A stretch of DNA of 64,000 nt. Source: Craterostigma plantagineum. Lineage: Eukaryota; Streptophyta; Magnoliopsida; Lamiales; Linderniaceae. The notes under the pieces are model-generated. The model saw only the letters and a program-made list of their open reading frames with translations. It was not told where the DNA came from and searched no databases. The first letter of the stretch is position 1; the number at the start of each line of letters is the position of its first letter. Location: contig JAPQWV010000017.1 in NCBI GenBank assembly GCA_027422505.1, positions 14,757,501-14,821,500 of the forward strand. Reading direction: 5' to 3'. A program made the position numbers and the translations under genes. This document shows, piece by piece, positions 16,637 to 51,650 of this stretch.

Positions 16637-17697
16637 AGATTCGTTCTGTTTTGAATCGTAAATTGTTAGAATTGGATCGAAAATCATTTTCTGGATACTG
16701 TTCATCGAACAACAGTTTGGCGCGAAAACCTTTTTCGATCCAATAGCTTAAATCTGTGTTAATTGACTTGAATTTGGTGTTTCTGTGCTTGTTTAAGTGT
16801 TAGATCATCATTGCGATCAGTTCTGTAGCAGTTTAAACTTCAATTTTTAGGATTGAATCGCTTCTGCGTCTTACTGTTTGCGAAGAACATGAAGAACACG
16901 TTCTGATTTTGATCAAATTCGATATATTTTGCTTCATAACGTGTTTAATTGCTTGTTCGTGCGTGATTAGTACTTGATTGCGAGCAATTACCTTAAACTT
17001 CACTATCCGACTCTTTGTTTTTGCTCGAATTTGTGTTAATCGTATTCTGTTAATTTTTCTCGATTGCTCAAATTTTTCTCGCTAAGTTTTGCGATCGGAT
17101 TAGTTTCTCGATCGATAAACTTAGCGCGAGAATTTTTCTCGGTCAGAATACGAAGTCAGTACTAGAATCGTCATCAGCAGAAACGATTTTAGTTAAAAAT
17201 ATTTCTCGAGCATTATACAGCGAAACTTTTTCTAGAGAGACTTATTTTGACTTTGCATGCGTAAAAACTTTCACTCGAAAAACGTTTTTGGCCAAACCTT
17301 TTGACGTTTGACCAGGCGAAAATCATTTACACGCGAGAAATCCTTCTAGTAAATAGATTTATTTTGACTTGTCGAGAAACTTACTAACGTACTGTTACTT
17401 TACGATCGAAATAAATTCACGATAAGAAATTTTTCTCGACCGAATTATTTTGAGCAATTTATCTCGCTCGTAAAATATCACGCTGACAAAATTTCTCGCA
17501 CGCGAACAGTACCCAGTACATTCTATCTCGACAGAATTAATTTCGATCAAACTTTAAAGATTGAATCGAAAATAATTCTCGATCTAATTTTCGAATCAAA
17601 CGCTACTAACGAATTTCTTCACTGAAGCACATTACATCATCTTCAACCTTCAAAACAATTAACGAAGATCCTTCAACAACTCGACTACAATACAAAC
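16637..17697 (+). other. Untranslated leader with TTTCTCG-type motifs
   Basis: About 1.06 kb between the primer site and gag without coding signs. From about 17040 it is rich in TTTCTCG, TTCTCGATCG and CGAGAAA words. The same words fill the pol-env spacer of this element (25970-27330) and of the third copy (57065-58300). Confidence 0.7.
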
Positions 17698-18859
17698 ATG
17701 GATGCATATTCACACGAAAATGACAACCGTCCGCCGATCTTGCAAAGAGGCGAATACATAGTGTGGAGAAGCCGCTTTCTGAATTTCATCGCTCTAAAGG
17801 ATCAAGCCGAAAATCTACTGAAGTCCCTTGAAGAGGAACAGGCACAGTTCTGGGTTCATGTACCCAGGGACGAAACCGCTACTCCAGCAATTCCAGTTTC
17901 TAGGCGACTAAAGGAGCCTGGAGAATACTCTCTGGAGGAAAGAGCTCGAGCTAAGGCTAATCTAGTAGCCATGAATACCCTTATGCAGGGCATCCCCAAC
18001 GATATATGCAGACAAATCGACAGCCTTACATCGGCCAAAGGGATGGGATGAGCTGCATAGGATGATGCAAAGGACGAAAGTTGGTATAAAGGCCAAGAAG
18101 ACGAACATTCTCACCGCTTGCGACTCATTCAAAGCAAAGCCGGAGGAGAGTCTAAACGAGATCTACCAACGATACCTCACTCTTCTCAATGAGATGAGGA
18201 AGATAGAAATAACGAAGACAAACATGGAGACAAACATAAGATATCTATCTTCTCTGTCCACGGAATGGAAGAAAATATCCACTCAAATACGACAAAACAA
18301 AGATCTAGAGGAGTTGGATGTCCATGCCGTGTTCGACAATCTCGCCCAGCATGAGGAGGATATCCGCGAGATCATCAAAGAGCAGAAAGGCAAACAAACA
18401 GATGACACGGTTGCCTTAGTCTCGGAGAAGAGGAGCACAAGATCAAGAAAGGATAAGATCGTTAGGCCACCTTCATCATCGGAGTCGGAAGAGGAATCGG
18501 ACTCCGACATCGAGCCGAACATGAAAGCCCTTGGAAAACAGCTACCTCTCATTGGACAAATGATGAGCAAGAAGTACTTCAAGAAGAAGTCTTCAACCTC
18601 AGCCAATAGACTTCGGACTACAAGCTCCAAGAACAAAGAACGTTCTCCGGAGAGTTCCGAGGTCAAGAATCCCAAAGAGACTAATAAATGTTTTAACTGT
18701 GGCAAAGTAGGTCACTTCGCTAGAGAGTGCACTCTCCCGAAGAAAAGAGATGCAAACTACTACTCCAGGAAGCTTCAATTGACAAAACAAAAAGAAGCTG
18801 GAGTAGCTCTCATGGCCGAACAGGACCAATGGAACGAGGACACGTCGAGCTCCGAATAA
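17698..18859 (+). pseudogene. Sirevirus gag (frameshifted)
   Basis: The ATG at 17698 opens MDAYSHENDNRPPILQRGEY, matching in layout the start of the intact SIRE-B Gag (RPPMLRQGDYSIW). The first 117 codons run to a stop near 18050, and a shifted frame resumes at 18062 for 265 codons. The second part contains an acidic Ser-rich linker and a complete CCHC zinc knuckle (CFNCGKVGHFAREC) at about 18686-18730, followed by YYSRKLQLTK as in SIRE-B. Gag packages element RNA. One frameshift separates the two halves. An in-frame stop at 18857 is followed by a decayed extension. Confidence 0.85.
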
Positions 18860-23700: not shown

Positions 23701-24104
23701 ACGGCCGAAGTAGAATACGTAGCTACCGCCAGCTGTTGCTCACAGATGTGTGGATACGGACACAGCTTCGCGACTATGTGTACAATCTAAATAATATACC
23801 CATATATAGTGATAGTCAGAGTGCAATCGCCATTACTTGCAATCATGTTCATCATTCACGCACAAAACACATAGACATTAGATATCATTTTATCAAAGAT
23901 CACGTAGAAAAAGGCACGATAGAGATGTACTTTGTAAACACGGAGTTTCAACTAGCCGACATTTTCACCAAGGGATTGGATGAGAAACGATCAGTTCCTT
24001 GTCGGAAAATTAGGCATGTTGAATCTTCCGTAATATGTGCAATACCTGATCTTCTGTGCTATCACATGCTATATTCTATGTGTTTTCCCTTTAGGATGCT
24101 TTGA
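20761..24104 (+). pseudogene. Sirevirus pol: protease, integrase, RT, RNase H (broken)
   Basis: Order is PR-INT-RT-RH as in copia. [16 protein letters not shown] at about 20770. INT: LWHQRLSHLN, HCSACQLGKM, then catalytic D in HMDLCGP, D in RTDNGTEF and E in [10 protein letters not shown], all intact within the frame 20967-21998. RT: a deletion of about 35 codons joins VWTL to [12 protein letters not shown] near 22700; [10 protein letters not shown] and the catalytic YVDD (about 23096) remain. RNase H: DADYAG, AEVEYVA, DSQSAIA and LADIFTKGLD. At least five frameshifts or stops split it (about 20920, 22000, 22720, 23080, 23330, 23780). It is closely related to SIRE-B Pol. Confidence 0.9.
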
Positions 24105-24652
24105 TCTAAAGTCACTTAGAATTTTACCTCGACGTGCGATTGATTTAATTGCTTAATTTTGTCAGTCTAAGTCGCATTCTTGTGTCTAAAGGTCACTAGG
24201 TTGCTCCACTAGACACAAAGCCACTATAAATGTGAGGATTCAAGCCTTGTTCTATTTTTCTTTCTTCGGATCTTTTTCTCGAGTGAGTCACACATCATTT
24301 GCTTGTCTTAACTAGTGACACTTGGCGTCATACTCATCTTGCGTTAGATCGTTAGGAAAATGATAAGGGAGTTTAGGATATTCCTCATTCGGCCTTATAT
24401 TAATTTCCCCACGTTAGCCCTTAGTCATCCACTTTGAGCCTTCTCCGATGTCCTTTTCTTCATTTGAAACCCATTCTCAGCCTTCAACCGAACTATATAC
24501 TCTTCGAATGGTTGTTCAAACGAGAAAAGGAGGGGGAGATAACGAAAGAAAAAATAAGATGATGACAAAAGAAGGCATTGCTCAACGCGCAACAAACAGA
24601 CCAAAGGAACCGGCCTTCCGACTACCTTGTAGAAAGTGGCATGGATCCTGCT

Positions 24653-25430: not shown

Positions 25431-25480
25431 ATGTATATATATATATATATATATATACATACATATATGTATATTAAGAA
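25431..25480. repeat. (TA)n microsatellite
   Basis: An uninterrupted TA run followed by 'tacatacatatatgtatat'. Confidence 0.9.
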
Positions 25481-25969
25481 ATAAATAATAAATAAAAATT
25501 TCGGACATTTTGACATGAAATATTATATTTCATATGCGTTGAATTGAATAAATGCGAATTTCTTTAGTGTATCGCACATTCTAAATGCAATTTTAGATTG
25601 CTTTGGTGCTGAATTGTTTAAATGCGATAAATTTTTCATTGCTTCTCTGAGAATTTCAGATCTTTCAAAATTAAGGAGCGAGACGTCGACACTACAAAGA
25701 GAGGAGCTAGACACAAGACCAAATATTTCAAAGATAAAATTGCCAAAAAAAAATGTTGATTAACTCCACTATTACTAACGCTTATCTCTGAGTGGTACAG
25801 ATTTTTAAATTTCTGCCAGGGAAGCTAGACGTTATTACACAGAAAATTCAGGGAGTTTATTGCATTTATTTTAATTACTAAGGGGGAGTCTTACAAAAGG
25901 TTTTATTTTGAAATAGGGGTCAATCTGAAAATTTTAGAAGTACTTACTATTGAGAAACTAGATAGAAGA

Positions 25970-27330
25970 CTTAATTCACGATCATAAGTTTCTCGATCGT
26001 AAACAGTGTTGGAAACAATTTTGATTGGCCGCGATAATTTGCGATCGGAAAATTTTAATTGAGAGGAAATTTTCAAATCAAAAATTTCTCGAGTGCAAAT
26101 AGTAATGGGCCGGATCCATTTAATCGCAAAACGTCCAATCGCAAACCCAACATTGACTTAACGATAGTTAATAAAAGTTTAACTTTAGTCAGTCGAAAAA
26201 CTTTTTCTCACTCAACCCTAATCGCAAAACTCTCTCTAGCGAAAAACTTTCACAGACAGTTCAAAACTGCTCAAAAATCTTTCGATTTTCAACACGAAAT
26301 TGTCTGTGTAAGGTAGAAGAGAATCTGTTGCCATTTGCGTGTGATTTAACTTCGTTAGCATCTGCATTTTGTTGTTTTTCGCATGATTTATATTAGTTTC
26401 TCGACTGTTCTTCAAAACTGAGAAAATCGTATACTATTTCATAGTGTTTTAGGCTTGATTATGAGTGTTTTCTGAGTTTAATGCCTGCACTTAAGATAGT
26501 TTCGATATTCACTATGAATCTGATAGAATGGATCATCGGAAAATCTGCATCTTCGACTGTAATCTGAGTTTTTGATGAAACTGGGTATTTGAATGTTTAA
26601 AGCCATCGAAGAACTTTGTCGATCGCAAACAGTCTTAATTGAATTCTGATTTAATTGAGATACTGTTTATGTCGAATTAGTTTCTCGATCCGTAAAATTC
26701 TGATTTAGTCGCTAAGATAGAAGATTTTGACCGGAAATTTTTTTACATCGAGAAATCTAATTAGAATTTTTGTGAGCGAAAAACTTACGCACTGATTAGA
26801 CAATTTAGATACAAATTTTATCGAGCGTAAAACTTACTATCGCAAAATAGAAATTTTCGATTCAATTTCAATTTGGTCGCAAAAAATTAGCAGCGACAAA
26901 TTAACTTTTCAACACGTAATTTTTCGATCGCAAAATTCGCCGCTTGGGATCTAATTGATTGGAAAATTTCTCGACGATTGACTTAGTCTTTCGTTGATTA
27001 ATTTCTCGATAAAATTATATCGCAGCGAAAATTATTTTACTTACAATCGAAAATCATATTCCGCTCGACAAATTTCAAATCAAAAAATTTTATTCAATCG
27101 AGGAAAATTTCTCGATAGTAAATTTACCTGAGAAATAATTTCTCGATCGTAAATTTACACGGAATTTTTCTCGACCGTAAAATAGACCGACTACAGTCTC
27201 GATTTCAACTTCAATACTTAGAAAATTTTACTAAGCCTTTTACTCTGTAGCGGACCTTTGCGAATAAAATTTTCTCGATCGAAATATCGAACTGAGTCAT
27301 GACAATTGAAATTAATGCATAGGAAATCAT
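25970..27330 (+). repeat. TCTCGATCG-rich block before the env-like ORF
   Basis: Repeated words TTTCTCGATCGTAAA, CGATCGCAAA and AATTTCTCGA with irregular spacing. CGATCG is palindromic. Homologous blocks are at 57065-58300 and, more diverged, in the gag leader at 17040-17600. Confidence 0.75.
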
Positions 27331-27584
27331 TTTCAAAATCAATTTTATCGAGCGAACTAATAAAATTGAGCATATTTAAGCACGGAAAAATTACATTCGA
27401 AATTACATTCATGCCATTACGATTTTTCAAAATTGAGCATATACTATGGATTCGATATGATTTCAATTCAAAATTCATCGAACATGCTATTACTTGCGAT
27501 ATTACTATAGTTTGATGAAATTTATTCATACTTCGACTGAAAATAAAATTGAACTAATAAACTTTTATATATCTTATTTTTCAG

Positions 27585-30500
27585 ATGGATCGCTATCCAA
27601 GATATAATCATATATACGACCACAACTTGTATCTGAAGGTCCAGGTTACAAATTTTCAGCTCGATCTGAGCACCTTTCGATGCCCGGACGAGATTATTGT
27701 CTCTATCCTGAGAGGTCACCCCATCTGGCATGCGTTAACGGCCACCGCATCAGTGCCGATGGTATATCTCCAGTAGTTCTGGGGCTGCATACAAGGAGTA
27801 GACAATGGAGCTTTCAGATTCTCAACAAGGATCGGGACGCGGCATATTAGCATCGACAAGAACCAGTTCGACATGTTACTGGACTTGCCTCACAGCAATA
27901 ATTACGACCCGCTCCCATCCGATGCTGAGATAATTCAAGATTATTTGCACATGGGATACCAACCGCCGCTCACAAGATTAGCTCAGGTCCAGAGCAGCGG
28001 AATCCCACACCCGTGGAAGACACTATTCGAAATAGTGAATAGTGTCTGTCGCCCAAGCACGCAGGATTTGATAAGGGCAACAGCAACATTTTGAGGGTCT
28101 TCCATGGCACGCCTTTGCAAGAAATTACGACTACACTCAGCTGATCTGGAACGACCTCGCGGACCAAATTCGGCAAAAGGAGAACCGGCGATCGAAGAAC
28201 GTGCCTTATGCTCGGTGGTTCAGCTTCATCATCAGGGAGATCATGGCGCTGCACCAGACCATCCCTACTCTGCCTCTTGGCAGAAATTACCAACCACCAA
28301 GGCTCAAGTTCTTTCACAACCCACGGCTCACGGACCTGGACCAACCGTCGATGCCGATCTCATTCGACCTGGACCTGGACCAACCGTCGATGCCGATCTC
28401 TTTCACAACCCACGGCTCACGGACCTATACTGTCGGGACAGGAATCTCACCGAGGAAATGATTCGAGGGCCCCGACAGTGCTTGGAGCTAGCCCTCACCA
28501 ACAACTACAACAGCTAAGCCCTGAGGACGCTATGATTGATGATGTTGCTCAGGAGCTAGCTTAGGAGCCCCCATTGGTCGAAGAGCCAATGCCCGACGTC
28601 GATGATACGCTGATAGACGTCGTGGCTACGGAGATGGAACTCGAGGCTCCTGACCTCGAATTACAAGTGGAAGAGCCCTTACATGTAGGCGTGCTCGAAG
28701 AAACCATTGAGGAGGTTCTTCTACAAGAAGCACAACCCGAGACAGAAATTGGGCAGAGCTCGCTTCCACTGGTAACGGATCAGGCTCCAGGGGATGTTGA
28801 ACGTGATCCCACTCCTCACACAGCTACACCATCCGACACGGAGTCAGATGAGGAGATTAGCCTGATAAGACGGACTCCCAGACGACTTAGTATTCAACTG
28901 GAGTCCCTCTTCCCGGCCGTCACCGACGCACCAGATATCACGCTGACCACAACGACAAGTGTTGCTTGCACTTCTTCGCTCAATCTTGAGCCGCAACCAA
29001 CTCACGTGATGTCTGGTTCGCAGGCGCAACCTGAGCCTGCCTTAACACCCATAGAGACGAATCCTCAAGATTCGACTCGAGGATTGGGTGGAAGTCTCAT
29101 ACAGTCACAACCTCAAGTGACTGAGAGCCAACCCACAGAGTCGGTGTCTACTCAAGGGTTGATAACAGGCGACATCAGTCGTCCTGGTCCATCTCAGGAG
29201 GCGTCCGCACCCTTCGTGACGATCGAACAGTTCAAGGCCGCTCTCTCTGCCGCTGTACAGTCAATGGAAGAAAAGATCACAGATAGAGTACTCCAAGCAC
29301 TCGAGGCATCCCGAAGAGATACCGGGAAAGCACCTGCCTCTGAAGGCCCATCGTCACGAATCAACCCCACACCTCCACAACCCACACCCACCGACCCTCT
29401 AGCCACTTCCTCCATCCTCATCAACCCATACACAATCCCTATCACCGAGCCCCATGACATTCTCCTCGCCCGTCTGATAGGCCTTTCCATCCGATCGCCG
29501 CAAGAAGAATCCCTCTATAGGTGATTGGTGGACCATCCTGAGCCACCGACTGACACCTGCCGAGGCCAAAGCTCCCACTCACGGCGCAGACATGACGATC
29601 CTGACGATCAGGACCCTCATGAGGGGGAGAAGAGGCCAAGGACATCAACAAGTGGCCAACGACAAGGCTCAGGCGCTACGCAGACAAGCGCTGGAGCTGG
29701 TGAAATCCAAACAACCCAAACACAAACCCACCATACCCAAACACAAACCCACCGAACCCAAACACAAACCACCCACCAAGCCCAAACTACCCACACCACG
29801 CGCCGCACCGCCCACATCGACCCACCAACCTTTCACCTGAGGACGCCTCCGTCCACCCCACCGATCTACTCAAGCCCTTGCTTCCGGAAGAAGAAGCAAG
29901 TGCTGCGATGCTTGTAGCTCTAGCAGCTACCCAAGCCACTCCCTCAGTCGCTCCAGACCAACCGGGACCCTCTGGACATGGCGTCATCCACACGAGGCCC
30001 TAGACAAGTACATCTTAGAAGGACAGTGGATGACCCACACCATGCCCGAGGAGCATCAAAGACAACGGCTTCACGACGTTCGGCGCTTTCTACAACAAGC
30101 GTCTATTGATCTCGTAATCATAGAAGACGACGAGCTTCAGGAAGGTGAAGACTACGGGCGAGTTATCCCAAGGCTACCAGAGTTAATCGCTCAACAGGCG
30201 GTTCCATCTCCAAGGCTAACGCCAGGGACCGTCCGGATCGACACGTAATGGGAAAACATTCAAATAGAAATTCCCTTCCTCGAAAAAGTTCGTGAGAATA
30301 TTTGGAGGTCTCCGGACAGAGTGAAGAAGCCGAACGAGTTCGAGCTTAGAGGGATCTCTCATTGGGATCAGCAGAAGAGGATGACCTACCTCTGGATGCT
30401 GACCAAACTAGGACCTGATGTTAGGCTGGGGATGACTAAGACACAAGCCAAGAGCCATATAAGAGTCTCTCCCTAATAAGCCAACTACTCAGCGTATATT

Positions 30501-31114
30501 GTGCTAAAGGAGGACTTCCAACACCTCACTACATTATCGAACGAGTGGACAGGACCCGAGAGGAACTGAGCGACAGCGACCTGCCGTACCTCCCCGCCGA
30601 TGAAGTGTACCGTCTTTATCAGCTATACGTGGAGAAGTACAAAGGTCCTCAAGGCTTCATCAAGAAAGAAGGCCTCGAAGGGCTCTACCGGTTCATGATG
30701 CGCCAGGTCAAGTACTATGCCGCACACGACCTTCAGATGGCTCTGGAGAGCAATATGAAGAAGGTCAACATGACCGCTCCACTCAACAAAGGACCTGAGA
30801 TCGAAGGGCTTCCCAACAATCACGTGCACATCAGCTCAGTCCTAGGCGTCACCTACCACAATCCAATAACAAAGAAGAATAGGTTGATGCTGAAGACTGA
30901 GATTCATAAGTCTTGTGATGGGACGCTCAAGGTCGTCAGGAAAAACATCGAGCAGAGGTTGGAAGAAATCAACAGAGACACTATACTGAGGATCCACAGG
31001 TTCTTGAGAGAACAGCCGCTCCTAATGGAATTGCTTGAAGATATCGAGGAGCGACTGGAGTTTAGGATCACGCTGAGGAACTACGAGCATGCGCTGGGCT
31101 TACGCAGATCGTAG
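27585..31114 (+). pseudogene. SIRE-A env-like ORF, copy 2 (broken)
   Basis: The ATG at 27585 opens MDRYPRYNHIYDHNLYLKVQ. The N-terminal domain has FRCPDEIIVSILRGHPIWHA, also seen in SIRE-B as FRCDAPVIVEILKGHPLRHA. Then come IPHPWKTLF, SKNVPYARWF and LTDLDQPSMPISF, a Ser/Thr/Pro-rich middle (316-codon open stretch 28574-29524), and a C-terminal domain (189 codons, 30545-31114) with ESDLPY-like and DLQMALESN segments ending ALGLRRS. Stops and shifts occur near 27774, 28095, 28560, 29522, 30001, 30246 and 30476. No signal peptide or membrane segment stands out. Function unknown; it ends 32 bp before the polypurine tract. Confidence 0.85.
28312..28440 (+). repeat. Local duplication inside env-like copy 2
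   Basis: 'tttcacaacccacggctcac' and 'ggaccaaccgtcgatgccga' each occur twice within 130 bp, in the order A-B-B-A and the same orientation. Other copies of the ORF have a single A-B, so this is a lineage-specific rearrangement in a dead copy. Confidence 0.8.
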
Positions 31115-31146
31115 AGGACAAACGGCGCAGAGACGCAATCAAGCAC

Positions 31147-31157
31147 AAAGGGGGAGA
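31147..31157 (+). promoter_or_regulatory. Polypurine tract of the plus-strand SIRE-A end
   Basis: AAAGGGGGAGA directly before the LTR at 31159, as expected for plus-strand primer. Confidence 0.9.
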
Positions 31158-31158
31158 T

Positions 31159-31508: not shown

Positions 31509-31945
31509 GAGGTAATGAATATTTATTTTCCACCGTCATTTTATTCAACTGCCTGTAGTCAATACACAACCTAAGCGTTCCATCCTTCTTTTTAACGAAG
31601 AGTACAGGCACTCCCCATGGTGATACGCTTGGTCGTATATATCCCTTGTCTAATAATTCCCTCAACTGTACTTTTAACTCATTCAACTCTATTGGTGCCA
31701 TACGATACGATGGAATAGATATTGGTGCCGTGCTTGGTTGAAGCTCAATCGTAAATTCTGTATCGCGATCTGGCGGTAATCCAGACAAATCCTCAGGAAA
31801 AACATCAGGATATTCACTAACCACTGGGATATCCTCCACCTTCAACCCACATAATAGTGTATCTATAACATAAGCTAAATAACACTCACATCCTTTATTT
31901 ATCATTTTAGATGCTTCTAAGCTGGATATCTGATATGCTGTCCAT
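31509..31945 (-). pseudogene. Gypsy (chromovirus-type) RT N-terminal fragment
   Basis: On the minus strand: [67 protein letters not shown], then [20 protein letters not shown] and [15 protein letters not shown]. This is the protease-RT junction and first fingers of a chromovirus RT. It stops at 31509 where the SIRE-A LTR begins, before the catalytic YxDD box. Upstream it joins directly to LTR sequence at about 31946, so gag and protease are deleted. A 310-codon open frame (31468-32400) runs through the LTR block into this RT; its first half is not real protein. Confidence 0.85.
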
Positions 31946-32581
31946 ACACTATTGGATTTGCGAAGTACTCCCAATCCGCAAAGTAGTCGATCTTCAATTT
32001 GCGAAGTTGATTTGCGAAGTGTTTGAGTTTGCAAACTGTTGGATTCGTAAAACTCGATTAGCCAAACTTCCACGAGCTCGCAAACCTCGACTCGCCAAAT
32101 GGATTCGCAGAACTGATACGGGTTCGCCAAGTGACCAATTCGCCAACCGAGTGCGTAAAACCTTGCATGGATTCGTGAAATGGAGTTCGCAAGACTCCTT
32201 TGATCTGCGGCATGCTGATTTCGCCAATTGTGTTTGCAGACTGCCTTGAGTTCGTCATCCAGGCTGGGTTCGCGAAAGGCTTGAGTTCGCAAACTTCTTA
32301 CTGAGATTCGCGGCTTTTGGGTTCGTGAAACTCTTGTTTTGCGAATCCGATCCCACCAAAAACAACTTTCAGTTTGTGACGCCTTATGCTTTGAGATCAA
32401 AATCTCAACAACACTTTAAAGGTTGGTATAAACTCCTTAAACCCTAAATTCGAACTTGGCTAATAACGTACGCCTCACCTTCCCTTTTGTGCTTAAAATC
32501 TCTAAAACATGTTAATATAGGATTTTAAAGGTTCTAAACTAAGGTTAGAACATACTTTTCGAGAATTACAGTTGCACAACC
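31946..32581 (-). repeat. Tekay-like LTR, left part (interrupted by SIRE-B)
   Basis: Contains a diverged TTCGCGAA/TTCGCCAA block (to about 32350) like that at 160-715 and continues, across the SIRE-B insertion, at 47088. The last five bases (32577-32581, caacc) are the target-site copy. Its junction with RT at about 31946 shows that the end of the LTR has been lost. Confidence 0.7.
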
Positions 32582-32877
32582 TGTTGGTCCCGAAATGCAC
32601 CAAACAAGGAATCAAAGAAGCTAGATGGAATGAAAAGGGAGAATTTCTCACCTTGTAGTGTGTGTAGTGTGTGAAAACGAATTTTAGCTTTTTGATCTTT
32701 GATTGCCTTTCAAAGTGAGTTGGTAAAACCTTATATACCACATTAACCCTAGGTATATTAAGGCCCAATCACTAATAATAAAATAATTACAATCTTGTCC
32801 AAAGCCCAAGCTAAAGATAATTACATAATAAGTCTCAAGACTTAAACTATTGACACAACAAATTAAATATCCTAACA
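32582..32877 (-). repeat. SIRE-B 3' LTR
   Basis: On the minus strand it begins TGTTAGGATATT and ends GGGACCAACA. By eye it shows no difference from 46787-47082. A TATA box (GGTATATAAGG) lies at about 32730-32740. 296 bp is short for a Sirevirus LTR. Confidence 0.95.
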
Positions 32878-35900: not shown

Positions 35901-36676
35901 TACGGGACGAACCGGTTCGTGACTCCCTTGGCGATTTCCCGGTCACGTCTCTGGATCATTGAGACTAGGTCCACCCAGATGATGTCGGCGTAGTTGTACT
36001 TGCGGTTGTGAGCGATGCCGGTCATGATTGTGAGGATTTGAATGTTGCCGCGATCCTGACCAGCATGCTTTCCAGACATGCACTTGTTCACCAGCAGGTA
36101 CAGTGTCCGCCAGGGTTGTGGTAGGTTGCGGGTTGTGACTTCACTGAGGACAAGTGGGCCTTTCTTCTTCTTGGCATCTGGTTGATAGCCCAGTCTGTCG
36201 ATGTCTTCAATGAGTTGGTCGTGAGTGGGTGGTGGATCGTATGGTGAGTAGACCGGGAGTTGAAGAACTTCTTGGAGTATTCTGGGAGTGAGGACGACGG
36301 TTTCTTGATCGATTTGAGCGGATAGGATCTTGGCAAGACGTAGTGGTCCAGCTATTTGTAGCGTATGCCAGAATTGTTGAAGGTACACCTGAGCTTCTGG
36401 TTCGCCATGAGTGAGGGCGTGGCGAAGTGGGTGTCCTTTGAGAATCTCTACAATAACAGGGGCATCGCACCGAAAACTGTCCAAGTCCACCTTGTAGTTG
36501 TTGGGTACCAGGGCCGCCCATTGACTTAGTGAAAAAATCTCCTCCGGTGGTGGGACATAGGTACGCGCATGGAGTTCGATGCGAGTGACCTCTCTTTGGA
36601 TTGCAGCCTGCTCAAGTGCCTCGAGTGTACTTTGGTCTTTGTCCGTCATTTCTGTGCTTAACAGAAATTGGAGCAC
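32936..36676 (-). CDS. SIRE-B env-like protein, 1246 aa
   Basis: Uninterrupted ORF between pol and the polypurine tract, the place where some Sireviruses carry an 'env-like' ORF. Start options are Met1 or Met10 (MTDKDQSTLEALEQ). Residues about 40-330 form a conserved domain shared with the SIRE-A copies (VDLDSFRCDAPVIVEILKGH, VYLQQFW, RNLPQPWRTLYLL, YNYADIIWVDL). Residues about 350-900 are Ser/Thr/Pro-rich with basic clusters PKKRSRE (381) and RRSKQK. Residues about 930-1246 form a second conserved domain (FYATHDLQMAVEHNLKKVNL, then FEFKLGLRETLTR). I see no clear signal peptide, membrane segment or glycoprotein layout, so an envelope role is doubtful; the basic clusters could be nuclear signals. 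It is the only intact copy of four in the window. Confidence 0.9.
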   Translation of the reverse strand: MLQFLLSTEMTDKDQSTLEALEQAAIQREVTRIELHARTYVPPPEEIFSLSQWAALVPNNYKVDLDSFRCDAPVIVEILKGHPLRHALTHGEPEAQVYLQQFWHTLQIAGPLRLAKILSAQIDQETVVLTPRILQEVLQLPVYSPYDPPPTHDQLIEDIDRLGYQPDAKKKKGPLVLSEVTTRNLPQPWRTLYLLVNKCMSGKHAGQDRGNIQILTIMTGIAHNRKYNYADIIWVDLVSMIQRRDREIAKGVTNRFVPYMRWLPALIKHFRLHSTNIRIRPAAEHFQIPTVEKFAKKNTPAKDRHAMVIPDDVLAYADPTNPHVQEYRATTAAFRESPRPLSIVPMAQINPTAPIPGTSHTPPTTSKKSSGRAASSSTRVPKKRSREDDVSRPTERRSKQKHDRPPPPQISRAEPIGTGGDVFTSRVEVVASGSTTQTTPPTHLSSSLQEGISFHEEPRIPSTSHLEMIDVETSSPSPQTASFSYTSSLVPSLPIIPSVSRTHTPLTAPQSLRDSVRTLGDVSVTESGRPSTANITTTVSLGHHSIESVSSMMLTGSLSDPVFSSPVQTGGRSAIFTESVSVGALRDSNLLDLPHFVTETALETRLQEFAKTLEASILDKVYARLEASTVDKGKGVAPETPPPMQHTDADDLLSSISAKELFYILRARFESMTELDEEEQQMKKIMTQPLSCRTQGETSRTRRDDQDDDQDRREGENRQLSSQGFMQSTPPSSSGPETTSAPETSQPTSQKSHPVHPESLAKSPSPPPTTVSEALIVTSTLETTSTSSPSTTSEPLAVTSTLEATTTSTPPVTQIILAKTITTTEPPESPPQPSPQSTNSFEATPSPSHSHTPLDIDPNLAVEDVYCAQNEIEAYIFNDEWLYTPADAVAARKLVENARRLLKEASLTLINTADDENGEEYDAEPAELENILQFQAQQTEAPAAQTDVPTVDIPEAPWENKKITAPFQEEIRKRIWRRKEKIVTTFDEYELMNIQSWSERKKQLYRWSLLCHKCTDRTLSDEENITQEMNRAPICKVTDLRHESKGPVHYPVFTVMRQDESYSEVSEADFKFLRLGDLYSMLESLKQFRLVPRSSGHLVRAEPVTMGYVAIKHHMLRQVRFYATHDLQMAVEHNLKKVNLTRPSFKNADDYREGDVIDGDDPAVAYSNYKGKMRLLRCSEVAKFSDGTLTIIQDKLMRICRILSEEDPLCRSKFAKLIDAIPDRMVLRRNLRAFEFKLGLRETLTR

Positions 36677-37575
36677 GGTTAGTACAGGTTAGTTCGCGAA
36701 AATGATGCAGTAGCGAGTTTCGACAATTTTAGGCATTTAAACGAAATTTTTCAACACTTAGGAAATTTTCAGATATGAAGATGTGTATGGGACATGGAAA
36801 AATTTGCTAAGTATAACACATAGTCATATCGAGAAAAAAAATTCACACGACATGTAAAATTGCTCATGTAATGGAAGAATTTTCGCAGATTATGTCACGT
36901 AGAAATGTCGAGGATATTTTCGCATGTTGTATAAAATATCTGATGCATGGAACATTTTCGCATATAGCATAGAAATTTCGTATTCAGTACTTAGAGAAAT
37001 TTTGCCGAGAAAATTGTCGCATAAAGAGAAAATTTTCGCATTTAATGAGATTTTTCGCAAGTATGGAAGGATTTTCGCAAGTGGTGGAATCTCGCAAGTT
37101 GTGCAAATTTTCGCATATAATGAGAAAAAAAAATCGCAACTTATCAGGTATAGAAATTTTCTCAAGGTTGAAGAAATTTTGCACTTAGTCACAAAAATCT
37201 CACACGTTAAAAAAAAATTTCTCAAGTTTCAACATTTCGCACTTAGCCATAATTTCAGAATTTCAAAATCTCGCACGTAATGATAGTTTTCTCATGTTTC
37301 AAAATTTCGCACTCAGCATATAATGAAAATTTCGCGGATTGAAAAGTCTTTGTGGATTTGATAAATTTTTGTTCACTGTAGATGCGAGTTTATGAAAATT
37401 TCGCGGGTTGAAACATCTTTGCGGATTGAGAAAATTTCCAGTGCATTGTAGATGCGAGAAAAAAAAAGACGATGCGAAAATCTGGATAATGGAGTGAAGT
37501 ATACGAAAGTTTCGTGGGACTTCACGATGCGAAATTTTAAGATATGTAAATTCTCATACGAAAGTTTCTCAGATA

Positions 37576-37720
37576 AAATTTCGCGGGGCTACACTCACTG
37601 TAGTGCAGAATTTTTCTCAGGTATATTAAAAATTTCGCGGGCTACACTCACTGTAGTGTAAGAATTTTAAAAATTTCGCGGGGCAACACTTACAGTAGTG
37701 CAAGTATTTTCTCGGGTAAG
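37576..37720. repeat. Short tandem repeat with CACT...AGTG inverted arms
   Basis: Three neighbouring copies combine TTTCGCGGG with 'ctacactcactgtagtg' or a variant ('caacacttacagtagtg'). CACT and AGTG can pair. Related 'cactgtag' words recur at about 37376 and 37810. Confidence 0.65.
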
Positions 37721-38587
37721 TTGAAAATTTAAAGCAGCGAATTTTATCATTTAAAGCAATTTTTCTGAGAAAGTTTCTCGGTGAGAAAAAAAATTCGCGG
37801 GGCTTATGGTACTGTAGCTGCGAAAATTTAACAATTTAAAGCACTTTATCTGAGAAAATTTCGCGGTGAAGAACATAGTTGAAAACAGCGAAGCGACGTA
37901 ATAAATTTTACCCCTAGACCTACTCAAATCTTAACCAAAATGCTGTAATCTGGGCTCAATCGATTCGTAATTGAATGGGTAATGCATATTTGGGGATATT
38001 AAACAAAGAGAACCTAGCATACATGCGATTCAGAGCCGAGAAAAATATAAACCCTAACTTAGCAGTTTTAATAATATGGGTAAAACACGGTAAAATCGAA
38101 CAGAAATTGGGTTATTTAAGACGCAATCATACCGAAAAACTGATTTGCGATGATGGAGTTAGCAGGAAATGAAATTTGAATGCAGATTTGACGAAGACGA
38201 GGATGTGAGGTGTTGCGAATTTTTGACAGAGGGGTTGCGAATTTTTTTTTTTTTTTTTTTTTTTGAGAGAGAGGTTGCGAAATTTTTAAATTTTCTCGGG
38301 ATCTTTTGGATAATGAGAAAAAATGTTAAGGTTTTTAGGGTTTTACGATTGGAGAGACTGTATATGCGAATTTTTGAGTAAATGGGCCGAAAATTCGCGG
38401 GCTTGGTCAAAACCTTAAGTTAGCTGAATTTCGCGGTCTTGTACCCAATTTTGACCCTTTTTGACCAGAAATTAGAAATTCAACCCAAAATATTTTAATT
38501 GGTTTGATTTTGACACAGTTTGACCAAACTTTTAAAATTTCAACCCCCTTTTTTTTTTTTTTTTTTTTTAAATAATATAAATAAGAA

Positions 38588-38780
38588 GCTCCCCCTTAAT
38601 CGCAAAACTCCCCGTTTTAAATAATGAAATATCAGACGCTCCCCCTTAATTGTAAAATTCCCGTTTTAAATAATGAAATATCAGACGCTCCCCCTTAATT
38701 GAAAAATTCCCGTTTTAAATAACGAAATATCAAAGACTCCCCTTAATCGAAAAAAAAAAAAAAAAACTCCCCCTCAAAAG
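38588..38780 (-). repeat. 49-50 bp tandem repeat carrying polypurine-like cores
   Basis: Copies start at about 38588, 38638, 38687 and 38735, with a fifth C-rich core near 38766. On the minus (element) strand each core reads ATTAAGGGGGAGC, close to the real tract (AAAGGGGGAGA). The array lies 85-280 bp after the pol stop, where the 3' end of an element lacking the extra ORF would be. Confidence 0.8.
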
Positions 38781-38865
38781 ACATAATCCAGACGACACAT
38801 AGAAAATGTAGTGAAGTGGAAAGGAAATATGTACACTTAATCAAAGTTCAAGTAGAGACGATTGA

Positions 38866-45144: not shown

Positions 45145-46772
45145 GGTTGGTGCAGTCGAATCGTCCGTGGTTTTGATCCTTTTAGATAAGAAAGTTAGTA
45201 ACGAACGAGATGAGAAAGATGAGTTTAACGAGCAGAGTTTGTGAAAAATTGTTCAAAGAATTTCTTAGAACTACGTGAGCGTGTGTGATGGTCGATAATG
45301 TATGAACGAGAAATATATCTTGAAGTTAGGGGAAGTCTTAGAAATTTTAAATCGAGACTTGTGGGGCGAATTTCAACACGAGAAATTTTTGGACATGAGA
45401 GTAAAATTTTGGACCCGAGAACTTTTGATGATGAGAAAAATTTGGTATATGCGAAAAAAATTTTGTACCCGAGAAATAAAGCTGACTCTAAAATTTAACA
45501 CATCAGAAAACTTCGTATATTGTGTAGGTGCGAAATTTTCAGCTAAACATGTGATCGTATGAGGAATTACCCAAGAAATTACGTTTTGAGAAATTTCGGT
45601 GTTTGAGAGTTTTAAAGACTTCTCGGATTTGAAAGAGACGTGGATAAATTTTCTCGACTTTGAAAATTTCTCGGATTGAAAACTTTCGTGAATTTCAAAA
45701 CTTTCTCAGTCAAAGAAAAAGAATTCTCAGGTGTAAGGTTTCAAAAATTCTCGGCTTTGAAAAACTTTCTCGGGTGTAAAGATTTTCGTGACTTTCAAAA
45801 AATTTCTCGGCCTTAAAAATTTCTCGGATGTAAAAATTTGTCAGAAAGTTCTCGGCTGGAAAAAAAAATTCGCGGCTTTGAAAGATTCGCGGGATAAGCT
45901 TTCTAGGATATGGATTTTCTGAAAATTCTCGGCTTAGTAAAATTTCTCAGATTTTTGAAAATTTCGCGGCTCGGAAAAAAAATTCTTGGAAAAAAAAAAC
46001 TTTCTCGTGTATAAAGTTTCTCTGATTTTAAAGAGTATGGACTTGAGAAAGATTTGATCTTAGAGAAATTTTCGCGGTTTTTTTTGGAAATTCCCGGATT
46101 TTATAGAGTATGAAGTTGAGAACAGATAACTTGGCCTAAGGAAAAAAAATTTCGCGGAGTTAAACTTTCTCGGATTTTGGGCATAGGTCATTGAGAAAAA
46201 AAAACACAGTGAAAGTGAGTTTTTCGCGGTTTGAAAATTCGCGGATTTTGAAGATTCTCGGGATCGACTTTCTCGGACGTGGAAAATTCGCGGACTTGAA
46301 CGATCAAGCTCAAAGTTTCGCGGTCAAGAACACGTTAGTACTGTTCCATTGCTTTTCACGCGATTTCCCAGAAAAACGTCCCGTTCTTGCTCAAATCTCA
46401 ACCAAAATCGCTGAAACTTGTTCCTAAACTTCAGAAATTCTTCCCTAAACACATAATCGACCGATTTGTGAGCTAAAAACAACAAAAAAAGGGTCAAATC
46501 GACCAAAAACAGAGAATGGCCGAAATGTCTTTTTCTGAAAAATTTCTGCTTAAATCTCGCTCAAAACTCGTTAAAACTGATCCAAAAGTGTTCTAAAAAC
46601 ATTTTTAGACATATACTTGATCTGGGGGAGGGTTTTAAACACAAAAACGAAGCATCAAAAGCCCCAAACCAAGCTCAAAGTGCCGAAATCTATTTTTTGC
46701 TCAAAAACACCTTTGATCTTGCTTGGAATCGAACGAAACTGGATTCAAATCAATGAAGATCGATCCACGTTT
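45145..46772 (-). other. SIRE-B 5' leader with TTCGCGG/TCTCGG motifs
   Basis: 1.6 kb between the primer site and gag. On the plus strand it is full of TTTCTCGG, AATTCGCGG and TTCGCGGG words (about 45360-46330), matching the pol-env spacer of this element. No ORF of note. Confidence 0.8.
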
Positions 46773-46784
46773 GCTCTGATACCA
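46773..46784 (-). promoter_or_regulatory. SIRE-B primer-binding site (initiator Met tRNA)
   Basis: On the minus strand it reads TGGTATCAGAGC, two bases inside the 5' LTR. Confidence 0.95.
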
Positions 46785-46786
46785 CT

Positions 46787-47082
46787 TGTTGGTCCCGAAA
46801 TGCACCAAACAAGGAATCAAAGAAGCTAGATGGAATGAAAAGGGAGAATTTCTCACCTTGTAGTGTGTGTAGTGTGTGAAAACGAATTTTAGCTTTTTGA
46901 TCTTTGATTGCCTTTCAAAGTGAGTTGGTAAAACCTTATATACCACATTAACCCTAGGTATATTAAGGCCCAATCACTAATAATAAAATAATTACAATCT
47001 TGTCCAAAGCCCAAGCTAAAGATAATTACATAATAAGTCTCAAGACTTAAACTATTGACACAACAAATTAAATATCCTAACA
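46787..47082 (-). repeat. SIRE-B 5' LTR
   Basis: Looks identical to the 3' LTR by eye over 296 bp. The TATA box (GGTATATAAGG on the minus strand) at about 46935-46945 would drive the genomic RNA. CAACC follows at 47083-47087. Confidence 0.95.
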
Positions 47083-47087
47083 CAACC

Positions 47088-47661
47088 CCTAATATGAAAT
47101 ATGTATTTGACGTTTATAATCCCTAAGGTATGCTATTACTTAAGTGAGGGCACGAAAATTAGGGTGAGGATTCATTACGTTTTCCACTATGCGTGATTTT
47201 CAATTCGGGTTCTCCTTCTTCTTTTGGCTCGAGCTTAAGTTGGTTTCTATGGAGTTTTGTGGACTTAAAAGGGCTTTAGATAATTATTAAGTTGCGGGGA
47301 TGGTGATAGGACATATGGGACGAAAATATCCCTTAAAATCAGTGAAGGTTTGTCCTAAAAATCATTTTTATGTCTATTGGGCCTAGTATCTTAATCTAGC
47401 CCACTTGAGATTTTAAATTATATTCACTCATGGCCTAATTTCCTCTTAGGCCTATTTTTTGAAATCCCCAATTAAATTTAGAAGTCACCTAGCGCAATTT
47501 AAATGCACCAATTTCCACCAAATAAATTAAGCACGCATTTTAACATGCAATTTCACATAATTCACACGAGCACAGAATAATTGCACGAAATGCACATAAT
47601 TGTATTCAATATTTATGCAAATTTGTTGGCCTCTAATACTTACGAGGACCCGGGTGCTACA
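47088..47661 (-). repeat. Tekay-like LTR, right part (continues 31946-32581)
   Basis: On the minus strand it starts TGTAGCACCCGGGTCC at 47661. It aligns by eye with 900-1606. The neighbouring bases from 47662 are Athila RT, so the LTR was inserted in, or recombined with, an Athila pol. Confidence 0.75.
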
Positions 47662-48500
47662 GTAATGGAGGTGTTTATGGATGATTTTTCTGTGTTTGGG
47701 TCGTCATTTGATGTTTGTCTTGCTAATCTGAAGCTCGTACTCGCACATTGCGAGGATACGAACTTGGCACTTAATTGGGAAAAACATCACTTCAAGGTTC
47801 GAGAGGGGATAGTTTTGGGACACGAGATTTCCTATAAAGGAATCGAAGTGGACCGAGCTAAGTTAGAGACTATAGAAAAATTACCCGTACCAACGAACGT
47901 GAGGTCAATTAGGAGTTTTCTAGGACTTGCTGGATTTTACCGTAGGTTTATTAAGGACTTCTCTAAGATTGCACGACCCATGTCTAGATTACTTGAAAAA
48001 GACGCCCCGTTTGAGTTTAATGATGAATGCTTGCATGCATTTAATTTACTTAAGGAGCGACTTATCGCAACACCTATTATGGTCGCCCCCGACTGGGGGT
48101 TACCCTTTGAACTAATGTGCGATGCTAGTGATTACGCAGTGGGAGTCGTGCTAGGGCAGCGCATAGACAACCATTTCAGGCCGATTTACTACGCCAGCAA
48201 GACGTTAGACGCAGCCCAAGCCAACTACGCGACCACGGAAAAGGAGCTTTTAGCTGTCTTGTTTGCCTTTGATAAATTCAGGTCATACCTTATTTTATCG
48301 AAAGTTATTGCTGACCACTCTGCCCTTAAGTATCTACTAGCGAAGTCGGGCGCCAAGCATCGACTAATAAGATGGTACTCCTTCAAGAACTCGATATTGA
48401 GATCCGAGACAAGAAAGGCGCAGAGAATCTGGCGGCGGATCACCTCTCTCGACTGGAGGAGTTCGAATTTATAACAAGGACGGCAAAGAGATCCAGGACA
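47662..48500 (+). pseudogene. Athila-type gypsy RT (C-terminal part) and RNase H
   Basis: Begins inside RT with VEVFMDDFSVFGSSFDVCLA; FMDD is the catalytic box of this lineage. Then LNWEKHHFKVREGIVLGHEI, GFYRRFIKDFSKIARPM and, for RNase H, FELMCDASDYAVGVVLGQR and ANYATTEKELLAVLFAF. The usual VxYTDHxALK is shortened to VIADHSALK by a small in-frame deletion that removes residues before the catalytic region. A frameshift near 48375 moves the end (EIRDKKGAENLAADHLSRLE) to another frame. Gag, protease and the first half of RT are missing, replaced by the Tekay-like LTR at 47661. Confidence 0.9.
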
Positions 48501-49800
48501 CGTTTCCAGACGTGCACTTGTACTCAATACAAGTGGTAAGCGAAGATACTCCTTGGTTTGCAGAATTTGCTAATTATCTTGTTGCAAGGGTTCTTCCAAA
48601 GGGGTACACAAGTCAGCAGAAGAAATTATTTTCTGACCTGAAGTACTACTTTTTGGAAGATCCCTATCTTTTCAGGCGATGTGCAGAACAAGTGATTCGG
48701 CGATGTGTTTCTTCACCTGAGAAAACAAGGATTCTCAGTCATTGCCATAGCGGACCAACTGGAGGGCATTACGCAGCAAACCGAACCGCTCAGAAGGTAC
48801 TGGAAATCGGTTTCTACTGGCCTAGGATTTTCAGAAATGCCCAACGATATGTTGACATTTGTGATCAGTGTCAACGTGCAGGTAATATCTCGCGACGCGA
48901 TGAAATGCCTCAAAACTTTATTTTAGTCTGTGAGATTTTTGACGTTTGGGGTATAGATTCATGGGTCCGTTTCCTAGCTCATACAATAATAAGTACATTT
49001 TGGTCGCGGTAGACTATGTATCCAAGTGAGCCGAGGCGCAAGCTCTGCCCACGAATGATGCTGGGGTGGTGGTTAGATTTTTGCGAACATTATTTTCACG
49101 ATTTGGGGCACCTAGATGCATAATTAGCGACAGGGGCACACATTTCTGCAACACCCAATTTGCACGTACATTATAGCGTTATGGTGGTAGACACAGCTTA
49201 TCTACCCAGTATCACCCTCAGGCTAGCGGTCACGTAGAAGTAGTGAACCGCGAGTTAAAACGTATACTAGAGAAAACATTGGATGGGAACCGTAAGGAGT
49301 GGGCGAACAAGCTTAATGATGCACTATGGGCTTATAGGACTGCATACAAGACACCAGTAGGCACTACACCGTATAGATTGGTCTACGGAAGGCATGTCAC
49401 CTCCCCGTAGAAATCGAGCATAAAGACTATTGGGCAATTAAGTCATTGAACATGGATTTGGGGGAAGCCGGCGGAAAGCGGAAACTTCTAATTAATGAGC
49501 TAGACGAGTGGCATTTATCAGCTTATGATAATGCTAGAATGTATAAGGAGTGCTCGAAAGCCTACCATGACAGCAAAATTAGGCACAAGCTAGAATTTCA
49601 GGAAGGGGACCAAGTCCTCCTCTTTAATTCTCGACTTAGGCTTTTTCCCGGCAAACTTAGATCACGTTGGTCGGGACCGTTCACTCACTCGTGTTTTCCC
49701 ATATGGTACTGTCGAGATTTCAGGTATGGGGCAGGATACTTTCAAAGTGAACGGACATCGGTTGAAGCATTACCATGGAGGCGATGAAGACTTGAGCGAT
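48501..49800 (+). pseudogene. Athila-type gypsy integrase (broken)
   Basis: The zinc-binding domain (about 48740-48880) has HCHSGPTGGHYAANRTAQKV and CDQCQRAGNIS. The core has VWGIDSW instead of the usual catalytic DFMGPF context, then DRGTHFCN and [15 protein letters not shown], carrying the later D and E. The C-terminal part reads [35 protein letters not shown] and LRSRWSGPF. Frameshifts and stops near 49010, 49028, 49174 and 49410 kill it. After pol comes 'gcgcttcttgggaggcaacc', the post-pol text usual in Athila elements. Confidence 0.88.
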
Positions 49801-51650
49801 AAGGAGATATTATACCTCGACTTCCAGCCAGCATAAGAGCCCAAGAGGTACGTCCGGTTAAGATGTTAAAAGAAGCGCTTCTTGGGAGGCAACCAGGAAT
49901 TTTCGTTTATGTTTTAGGCATAACAAAAAAAAGGTTCACGGCCACGCCCTTAAGGACTCACGGCCGTGATACCTGTCGTTTTTGTTCACTGTCGTGAGTC
50001 ACGGACTTATGCTTAAGAATTCACGACCGTGACGTAGAAAAATATAAATATATATATATATAATAAATAATAAATAAATAAATAAATAAAACTGAAATTA
50101 TGTATAATTAAATTAATAATAATAATGAGCAAAACAAATTATACATATTTATATATAAATAAATAAAACTAAATAAATAAGTAAATAAAATTTTGCGAAT
50201 ATTGCGGGAGAATTTTTGCTTTCGCCAACTAATCGTATTTCGCGGTGTTTGCTTAGGATTTTCACAGGTTTTCGTCGCTAATCTATTAAAGTGCAAAATT
50301 CACAACGCAGATTCAAGAGACGGTATAGGAACGATAGTTTTACTTCATATAAGATGGTTACATACTAGTACAACTCGTGAGAACCCAACACCAATTAAGA
50401 CTGTGAATAACACAAAAGACGGAACAATAGTTTTGCTTCATAAGGGGAGTTACTCACAAGTACACCTTGTGAGAACCCAACACACGAAAGCCAGTAAAAC
50501 TGCAAACAAACCCACAAGAAGAGCAAAGTTGAGTGATAGCATATAATTACGTCGAAACCTCGCATATTCCTCAGTCTCATTCTCACGACCTTGCTGCTGT
50601 CCCTAATTCATAGTGGTTGGCTAATCCAGAATGTCGAAAATGAGATTGCTGAAGATGTGTGATTATGGTAAATGGTGTTGTGTGTTGTTCGAGCAATGTC
50701 TATTTATAGGCATGAAGGGAACAAGAAAATCATTATCATACCCGGCAAATCAAATAAATGATACAGACGAATTTTTTACTTGAGTGGCACCGCGAGAGAA
50801 AGTGATATTTTCTTTGTCGATTATCAGATTTTTTCTCGCGCAAATCATTCTCGAAAAACTCGTCGATTAGGTGTTAATTTTAGTAACAATATATATATAT
50901 ATATATATAATAGTAAAAAAATAATAAAATTAAAAATAAAAATAATGGGAAAAGAAAAGTCACGGCCTAAAGAAATGTACTCACGGCCGTGACGTATACT
51001 AATTAAGTACACTAACCCGTTTCACGGCCCAAGGGTACACCTTCATGGCCGTGACCCATGCGGGCCACACAAAAAAAATAAAATAAAATAAAACAAAAAA
51101 TAATAATAATAATAAAAATATATACATATAATAAAAACAAATATACAAAAAAATAATTAAAAAAATATATATATTTATAAAATTAGATTGTCATGGTTCG
51201 TGGCTCAGGAATCACGGTCGTGACGTTGAAGGGACTAAACTCAATGTCCCTTGTCACGGTTTGTGTCCTACAATGTCACGGCCGGGATGTGTACCGAAGA
51301 AGCCCACTGCCTCATTTCGCGGCCCAATGTGTACACCGTCATGGCCGTAGCATGTGCGGGTTTAATAATAATAAAAAAAACACTTCGAACATGTCACGGC
51401 CTACGACTCTTACATCACGGCTGTGACCTTACAAATTCACCCATCCTGCCGCTTGTCACGGCCTGGGGCACATGTGTCACTGCCGTGACTACTGCGAAAA
51501 CACAAATAAAAACCATTCCTTCATTCGCAACCCTCAACCCCAAATCATTTTCGTTAGTCACCACAACCGACGAACCTCCGCCACACTACCGTCGTCCGGC
51601 AACACAAAACATCCATTTTCCCTCCTTTTCAACGTGATTAAATCAACGAG
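49801..51650 (+). other. Athila pol-env spacer with TCACGGCCGTGA composite motifs
   Basis: No gene seen. Nine composite units (half-site, 13-14 nt, palindrome) lie at about 49936, 49999, 50961, 51022, 51191, 51252, 51313, 51395 and 51454. AT-rich simple sequence occurs at 50040-50180 and 50890-50945. A tandem pair of about 99 bp lies at 50319-50512. A TATA-like 'tatttatagg' is near 50700. Confidence 0.7.
50319..50512 (+). repeat. Tandem duplication of about 99 bp
   Basis: Copy 1 starts 'gacggtataggaacgatagt' at 50319 and copy 2 'gacggaacaatagttttgct' at 50418. Both contain 'gtgagaacccaacac' late in the unit. Copies are diverged. Confidence 0.75.

Follow-up and report, generated by a model that had tools for sequence, protein, structure and literature searches.

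Why should a retrotransposon carry the same block of CpG-containing motifs twice, once near its 5′ end and again in front of its env-like open reading frame (ORF)? This question is raised by a stretch of 64,000 nt in the 1.71-Gb Craterostigma plantagineum assembly (contig JAPQWV010000017.1, 14,757,501-14,821,500; hereafter the window), which contains long terminal repeat (LTR) retrotransposons nested in one another. Three families in the window, the Ty1/copia elements SIRE-A and SIRE-B and a Ty3/gypsy element of the Athila lineage, carry such paired arrays. We consider it probable that each element has two promoters and that the paired arrays are double-stranded cis-elements serving both.

Paired motif arrays in three families

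In SIRE-A (plus strand), an array of TTTCTCG and TCGATCG occupies the leader (16637-17697, core 16960-17640), between the primer binding site (PBS, 16625) and the gag ATG (17698), and another lies in the pol-env spacer (25960-27584). Counted in sense and antisense, TTTCTCG reaches 8.5 per kb in the leader, 6.5 in the spacer and 6.7 in a second SIRE-A-type spacer (A2, 57061-58558, plus strand); elsewhere in SIRE-A it falls to 1.1 in the flank at 24.1-25.9 kb, 0.16 in gag-pol and 0 in env and in both LTR pieces. SIRE-B (minus strand) has CCGCGAA (TTCGCGG on the other strand) at 5.5 per kb in the leader (45145-46772, together with CCGAGAA) and at 4.1 in the spacer (36650-38865), with 0 in LTR, gag, pol and env. 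In Athila (plus strand), GGCCGTGA occurs at 8.5 per kb in the LTR, where the array lies at 55240-55730, and at 6.7 in the spacer (49930-51500, arrays at 49936-50040 and 50950-51490), and is absent from the reverse transcriptase-integrase region (RT-IN) and from the exon 1-env part. The counts of these three motifs in the array regions were reached in 0/200 dinucleotide shuffles.

As the three motifs were chosen from the same sequence, more weight is given to an unsupervised test of same-strand 7-mer sharing (40 shuffles). Sharing between leader and spacer gave z 7.7-12.3 within SIRE-A (14-20 between its two spacers) and z 13-14 within SIRE-B, and sharing between LTR and spacer gave z 11-19 within Athila, compared to z -1.7 to 4.0 for Athila versus SIRE. 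SIRE-A and SIRE-B are not independent of each other, since the core CGAGAAA/TTTCTCG is common to both (z 2.8-8.4), standing on opposite strands in the two. Hence, the paired blocks that a first-pass annotation had claimed for three families are confirmed, being dense near the 5′ end and in the pol-env spacer, near zero in coding parts and paired by k-mers within the family; its claim that the motif differs by family stands for Athila compared to SIRE and only in part between SIRE-A and SIRE-B. A recent duplication between leader and spacer was considered and rejected, as the within-family matches are merely 15-94 bp long.

The SIRE arrays show a strand bias (17 sense and 3 antisense TTTCTCG in the SIRE-A leader and spacer; 18 and 0 CCGCGAA in SIRE-B), which weakens when one mismatch is allowed. 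TCTCGATCG occurs a single time in the SIRE-A leader, and TCGATCG has three further occurrences in the SIRE-A 3′ LTR piece. The observed/expected ratio (o/e) of CpG is 1.4-2.3 in the SIRE arrays and 1.37 in the Athila spacer, whereas the env region of Athila has 1.10 and its RT-IN, like the coding parts of SIRE, 0.79-0.94. The excess is weak in Athila, where the LTR array has an o/e of only 1.04 and a non-coding control (6500-10700) reaches 1.30.

SIRE-B is complete from LTR to LTR, with a 5-bp flanking repeat (GGTTG), a 5′ LTR (46781-47082) with 99.3% aligned identity to the 3′ LTR (32576-32877) and, in this order, a gag ORF, a pol ORF, the 2.2-kb spacer and an open env-like ORF of 1237 aa (32939-36649). 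The SIRE-A env-like ORF (27585-31148) is interrupted in the window copy. Both elements have a Ty1/copia pol, a PBS (16625 and 46773) which we take to be of the iMet type, and a polypurine tract (PPT), AGGGGGAG, adjoining the 3′ LTR (31149 and 32879). Athila has Ty3-type RT, RNaseH and integrase domains; its RT-IN (47581-49830) is followed by the spacer and the env-like region, LTR parts lie at 55000-56530 (plus) and 61250-63000 (minus), and its PBS, TGGCGCCGTTG, is presumably of the Athila type, the lineage name being that of the first-pass annotation. A SIRE-A-type spacer and env without gag-pol (57061-61245) is flanked by oppositely oriented Athila pieces. A fourth array, of the TTCGCGAA type and with no strand assigned, lies at 1-720 and again at 31900-32400; it is CpG-palindromic (in 1-720, TTCGCGA counts on the two strands are 10 and 9), and both of its sites are near a stretch that occurs at 1022-1369 and, on the far side of the SIRE-B insertion, at 47190-47534.

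Promoter-like and candidate splice signals in the pol-env spacers

The Athila arrays have a defined geometry. The unit is composed of a 12-bp palindrome and a half-site with their dyads 21-22 bp apart: in the LTR, TCACGGCCGTGA is followed by the half-site GGCCGTGA, and in the spacer the half-site TCACGGCC is followed by the palindrome, which occurs there twice in exact form and at nine sites with up to two mismatches. Successive dyads are 21-22 bp apart in 15 of the 31 spacings of the window arrays (random placement: mean 1.58, maximum 7 in 5000), although these spacings are not independent if the arrays grew by duplication. The same rule is repeated outside the window in two LTR copies, L054 (5/10 spacings) and L055 (4/14), whose aligned parts are 70-81% identical to those of the window; no dyad pair at this distance was present in L056-L059. 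For lone half-sites, the order is palindrome-half in the window LTR (5/5), half-palindrome in the spacer (4/4) and one of each in a second LTR array (LTR2, 62180-62450, minus strand), which has both orders and a third lone half-site far away from it. A distance of 21-22 bp is approximately two helical turns, and this spacing, used in either orientation, suggests a protein acting on double-stranded DNA.

The centre of the last dyad is followed at 22-23 bp by a TATA-like box in the spacer (AATAAAAA, 51505), in LTR2 (TATAAAAG, 62178) and in L055 (2454). The box is thus present at that distance in two of four LTRs; the other two, the window LTR and L054, have no strict match and, by eye, TTAAGG and TTAAAAA at the corresponding place. 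Since the box stands at the same distance in the spacer and in LTRs, the spacer copies the promoter spacing of the LTR. Scored with approximate splice matrices, the best donor in the Athila spacer is GAG/GTATGC at 51651, and no acceptor stands out.

These properties bear on a possible role of the arrays as RNA elements for packaging or dimerisation of the genomic RNA, for which the strand bias in SIRE-A and SIRE-B would speak. However, the Athila LTR array is upstream of the TATA-like box, so that its 5′ copy would be outside the RNA leader, the Athila unit has, for the most part, opposite orientations in LTR and spacer, and the core shared by the SIRE families is on opposite strands. An RNA role is therefore quite improbable, and packaging as the common function, which the first-pass annotation had offered, is disfavoured.

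The SIRE spacers have signals of their own. In SIRE-A, a TATA-like TTAATAAAAG at ~26168 and AACCCTA at 26214 are followed by the top-scoring donor (AAG/GTAGAA, 26313), and the top-scoring acceptor (TTTTTCAG/ATG, 27585) places CAG directly before the env ATG. Both sites align in A2 (donor 57298, CAG/ATG 58559), and among 15 aligned spacers the donor is kept in 14 and the acceptor in 11. In SIRE-B, the region of the putative promoter and exon 1 contains a 651-nt ATG-free run ending at the donor GTATGA, TTTTTCGGTATGA (TTTCG/GTATGA, 38132; 0/500 shuffles), the array is largely inside the predicted intron, and TACTAAC (36678) and the acceptor GCACAG (36651) precede the env-like ORF. B′, a rearranged SIRE-B relative (L049/L050), has a 537-nt ATG-free run (not shuffled) ending at the same donor TTTTTCGGTATGA; TACTAAC in SIRE-B, or TACTAAT in B′, stands together with AAGCACAG upstream of the env ATG, and donor and acceptor are conserved between the two. 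Several spacer signals are thus conserved between diverged copies. TACTAAC was noticed first and tested after: five of its eight occurrences in the window lie in sense in SIRE leaders or spacers (expected 0.41). It also precedes the gag ATG by 50-94 nt in SIRE-A (17604), SIRE-B (45194) and B′ (L049:5312), and the SIRE leader may also be an intron. As a separate observation, B′ has stops at the same place as SIRE-B, adjoining an acceptor-like TTTGCAG/G in the latter; pol may be expressed by readthrough or from a spliced RNA.

In the arrangement that we favour, the LTR promoter would produce the gag-pol RNA, and a second promoter in the pol-env spacer would produce a separate mRNA for the env-like ORF, with a 5′ leader that would be spliced at least in SIRE. 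The CpG motif would be a double-stranded cis-regulatory element standing in the same relation to both promoters within a family, with the Athila arrays just upstream of the TATA-like box and the SIRE-A and SIRE-B arrays mostly downstream of the predicted start (in the leader and in the 5′-UTR intron). Since the relation between array and promoter is the same at both units, one factor could drive both. We infer the transcription starts, the splicing and the factor binding in this scheme from the sequence. The equal placement proposed in the first-pass annotation applies relative to the promoter within a family and breaks down between families. Its proposals of a shared function and of second-ORF expression from an internal unit gain support from the spacers, in which candidate splice sites accompany TATA-like boxes and stretches poor in ATG.

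Alternatively, the env-like ORF could be reached by splicing of an LTR-initiated RNA, the spacer being an intron and the arrays splicing or export signals. Acceptors do precede env in SIRE, splicing is reported for Bagy-2 (PMC7264820) and acceptors are predicted for Athila (PMC2829016). However, an intron of an LTR-initiated RNA does not need a donor within the spacer, and every spacer has a candidate one that follows an ATG-poor stretch; the Athila spacer repeats the array-TATA spacing of the LTR, and the order of the Athila unit is mostly opposite in LTR and spacer. We regard this route as unlikely, although it deserves more weight than any other alternative to the second promoter.

Copies elsewhere in the genome, array turnover and CpG decay

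A genome search with the SIRE-A leader left 40 full-length matches that were scored, including that of the window, out of 3070 candidates. The stretches ~8-13 kb downstream were examined for 20 of the 39 other leaders, in rank order with two on short contigs skipped. Of these 20, 14 have a spacer at the expected distance, L027 has env only, L025 has an inserted SIRE-B relative, and four have none of the probed SIRE-A pieces; L010 and L011 gave identical figures and may be one copy taken twice. The 13 spacers that were aligned (the partly cut L020 was omitted) have 7-11 TTTCTCG each, and 28 leader stretches, including that of the window, have 4-8, as expected for stretches found by this leader.

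The window copy of SIRE-A is older and mosaic. Its 5′ LTR (16141-16624) has no match in the 27 other leader stretches, most of which include the LTR only in part, and 25 of these 27 match the 31160-type LTR, a sign of inter-element recombination. In L016 (a short match), L018, L021 and L026, the N-terminal part of env is only 70-73% identical to that of the window, unlike their spacers (82-97% identical), and SIRE-A env modules may be exchanged between copies.

For SIRE-B, turnover of the arrays can be followed in B′. Coding pieces of the two are 88.6-94.4% identical, and the leaders 73% and the spacers 70%, with many gaps; within the spacer, the predicted intron is 63% and the upstream part with the exon 84% identical. 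The B′ env piece has stops in the frame read. SIRE-B has nine CCGCGAA in its leader and nine in its spacer, and B′ has eight in each, all of them in sense (shuffle means in B′ 0.24 and 0.15). The motif number is thus kept while the surrounding sequence turns over, which is seen for SIRE-B only; at two further places, guessed in position (L051 and L052), there was no match to the SIRE-B leader or spacer. Neutral drift of tandem repeats could give similar short repeats in two non-coding places by chance, and the quick turnover of the arrays would agree with this. However, it is very improbable given that motif number and strand are kept while the intervening sequence changes, that the 21-22 bp geometry recurs in LTRs 70-81% identical, and that k-mers pair within the family.

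We also looked at the decay of the CpGs. If the arrays were a self-maintained unmethylated CpG island or chromatin platform, a reading related to the chromatin or methylation platform of the first-pass annotation, their CpGs should be spared. In favour of this, CpG o/e is 1.4-2.3 in most arrays, CHH sites show a lower transition rate in arrays (0.48%) than in coding parts (0.82%), CpG islands are predicted at such clusters (Bousios et al. 2010, PMC2829016), and CG methylation is strongly reduced over the central part of sunflower SIRE elements (PMC12844716). However, private transitions (TpG/CpA) at array CpGs (55/4307, 1.28%) are similar to those at coding CpGs (75/4794, 1.56%; p 0.25) and occur at ~4x the A/T rate, as expected of methylated DNA, and the o/e of the Athila LTR array is 1.04. 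A standing platform is thus not supported and is improbable. The window copy was present twice in the leader set, so that its own private changes were not counted. The leader array alone had 0.75% private CpG transitions versus 1.15% in gag (p 0.16), and it may be mildly protected from CpG decay. In resting copies, methylation of the arrays is probable, so that selection in active elements would have to renew the excess of CpG; the decay argues against a standing CpG island and would be compatible with demethylation on activation. Between the two SIRE-A spacers, CpG retention in the core was 0.64 versus 0.49 (the product of 70% identity), which is suggestive only, since the counting of positions ran from both sides and AA shows retention too.

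A role of the arrays downstream of a promoter can be compared to intron-mediated enhancement, where 13 CG hexamers are linked to expression when located in Arabidopsis first introns (PMC8157754). The same hexamers are enriched downstream of the predicted start in the SIRE-A leader and putative introns (4.0-4.7-fold, 0/2000 random sets) and in the SIRE-B leader (3.2-fold, p 0.001), a pattern by which a downstream-enhancer role fits SIRE-A best.

Several observations weigh against two promoters served by paired arrays. Unlike in SIRE-A, neither the SIRE-B intron (1.7-fold, p 0.14) nor the Athila spacer (1.3-fold, p 0.25) shows significant enrichment of the hexamers, and none of the 13 is in the Athila LTR array, whereas coding parts show 1.1-2.2-fold enrichment, highest in SIRE-B env (2.2-fold, 0/2000), so that the comparison to intron-mediated enhancement (PMC8157754) does not extend to Athila and is weak in the SIRE-B intron. 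The splice-site matrices are approximate; the donor chosen for SIRE-B is fourth by score and its acceptor seventh, and the A2 acceptor scores poorly, outside the top 8. In SIRE-A, A2 and Athila, the longest stretch free of ATG lies away from exon 1, and the TATA-like box of SIRE-A is not seen in A2. Helical spacing was not found in the SIRE arrays or the fourth array. The 7-mers of the motif are kept in place between SIRE-B and B′ only moderately above background (0.31-0.39 versus 0.13-0.24), and a review describes env-like genes as transcribed from the 5′ LTR (PMC7264820).

The Athila claim is further limited by L053, the sole other Athila spacer piece found, which is without such arrays. It is 84.6% identical to the window spacer over 50072-50936, the stretch between the two window arrays; its pol end, just before that stretch, is recognisably alike (flank compared by eye), but the first array is missing, and what follows the spacer match has no more than two stray half-sites, with up to two mismatches allowed. 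L053 (860-3389) gave no DNA match to the env-like region, and its LTR-like part has no dyad pairs. A single copy whose pieces may not all belong to one element, L053, without arrays and without a detectable env, fits the rule of Bousios et al. that spacer motifs accompany ENV (copies of the repeated motifs, RMs, before ENV in 9/9 RM elements with ENV and 0/4 without, PMC2829016).

The env-like proteins and known systems

Such paired arrays are already known in Sireviruses, where multicopy CpG motifs, the RMs, occur in the LTR and again before ENV and differ between families (Bousios et al. 2010, PMC2829016). The RMs are palindromic, with a CGG-CCG core in 12/13, and an internal promoter is discussed for them (PMC2829016). 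SIRE-A and SIRE-B resemble these elements in the motif clusters upstream of ENV and in multiple PPTs (AGGGGGAG). They differ in having the arrays in the leader, with 0 TTTCTCG and CCGCGAA in the LTR pieces (TCGATCG being present 3x in the SIRE-A 3′ LTR piece), and in lacking the CGG-CCG core; CCGCGAA is not palindromic, and SIRE-A has CGATCG. Here it is the Ty3/gypsy element, Athila, that has a CGG-CCG palindrome (CGGCCG), paired with a half-site 21-22 bp away. What is new is what appears to be the same design in a Ty3/gypsy element, where the site of Athila is composite and its spacing fixed; the SIRE-A and SIRE-B arrays in the leader and in a putative intron, with the SIRE-B motif kept despite array turnover; and, as evidence that the spacer may act as a second promoter, the conserved splice signals and the LTR-like promoter spacing in Athila.

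We then considered the env-like protein itself. The SIRE-B env-like ORF has no membrane-span-like segment (maximum KD-19 0.95; hydropathy only, one ORF) and, by eye, a basic cluster of the PKKRSRE type resembling a nuclear localization signal; together, these suggest that the protein may be nuclear. All of its listed relatives are from Tanacetum (3/3; with two of these as new queries, the best 120 relatives shown were again from Tanacetum throughout). The whole ORF had no Pfam match at E<=0.01, with pieces and relatives giving weak matches below the cut-off, and sequence profiles gave weak matches alone (E 0.33-0.97). AlphaFold2 models of the N-domain (mean pLDDT 67) and C-domain (73), which are of modest confidence, had no PDB fold match at E<=0.001, and scans of viral contigs with SIRE-B pol and the paired Athila palindrome found nothing.

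By analogy to known systems, the env-like proteins of Sireviruses and Athila could be nuclear, sequence-specific self-activators or anti-silencers rather than envelopes. Expressed from their own internal promoter, they would bind the array of their own family at the internal and LTR promoters, a plant counterpart of Tas and VANC in two retrotransposon superfamilies in which motif and protein would diverge and be lost together. We offer this as a tentative and rather doubtful proposal; a search of the open-licence PMC literature found no earlier proposal of array binding by env-like proteins. The working would be like that of foamy viruses, which have a second sense promoter in the 3′ half and cis-motifs at both promoters; unlike here, Tas is a known DNA-binding activator (PMC3185757), and the env-like ORF was unlinked to Tas in the searches run. 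In the system of VANC and VANDAL, each family has short motifs of its own, which are dense in non-coding parts, share one orientation and turn over fast (PMC5735166, PMC10398659), and a family-specific array in non-coding parts with fast turnover is found here as well (the turnover in SIRE-B only). VANDALs are DNA transposons, however, unlike the elements here. In maize Grande, gene23 is an extra gene after pol with its own promoter and a nuclear product; it differs in being antisense to gag-pol, and the available text mentions no paired array (PMC7264820).

With gene23, there is a precedent in a plant element for an additional gene under a promoter of its own (PMC7264820). The role of plant env-like genes is unsettled, since the cell wall leaves an envelope without obvious use (PMC7264820, PMC2829016). 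An array common to the LTR and the env promoter reduces this question to whether the env-like protein binds the array. If it is true that it does, abundant plant retrotransposon groups would carry their own activators. Even without such binding, a second promoter and a 5′-UTR intron would change how the expression of env-like genes should be measured and annotated.

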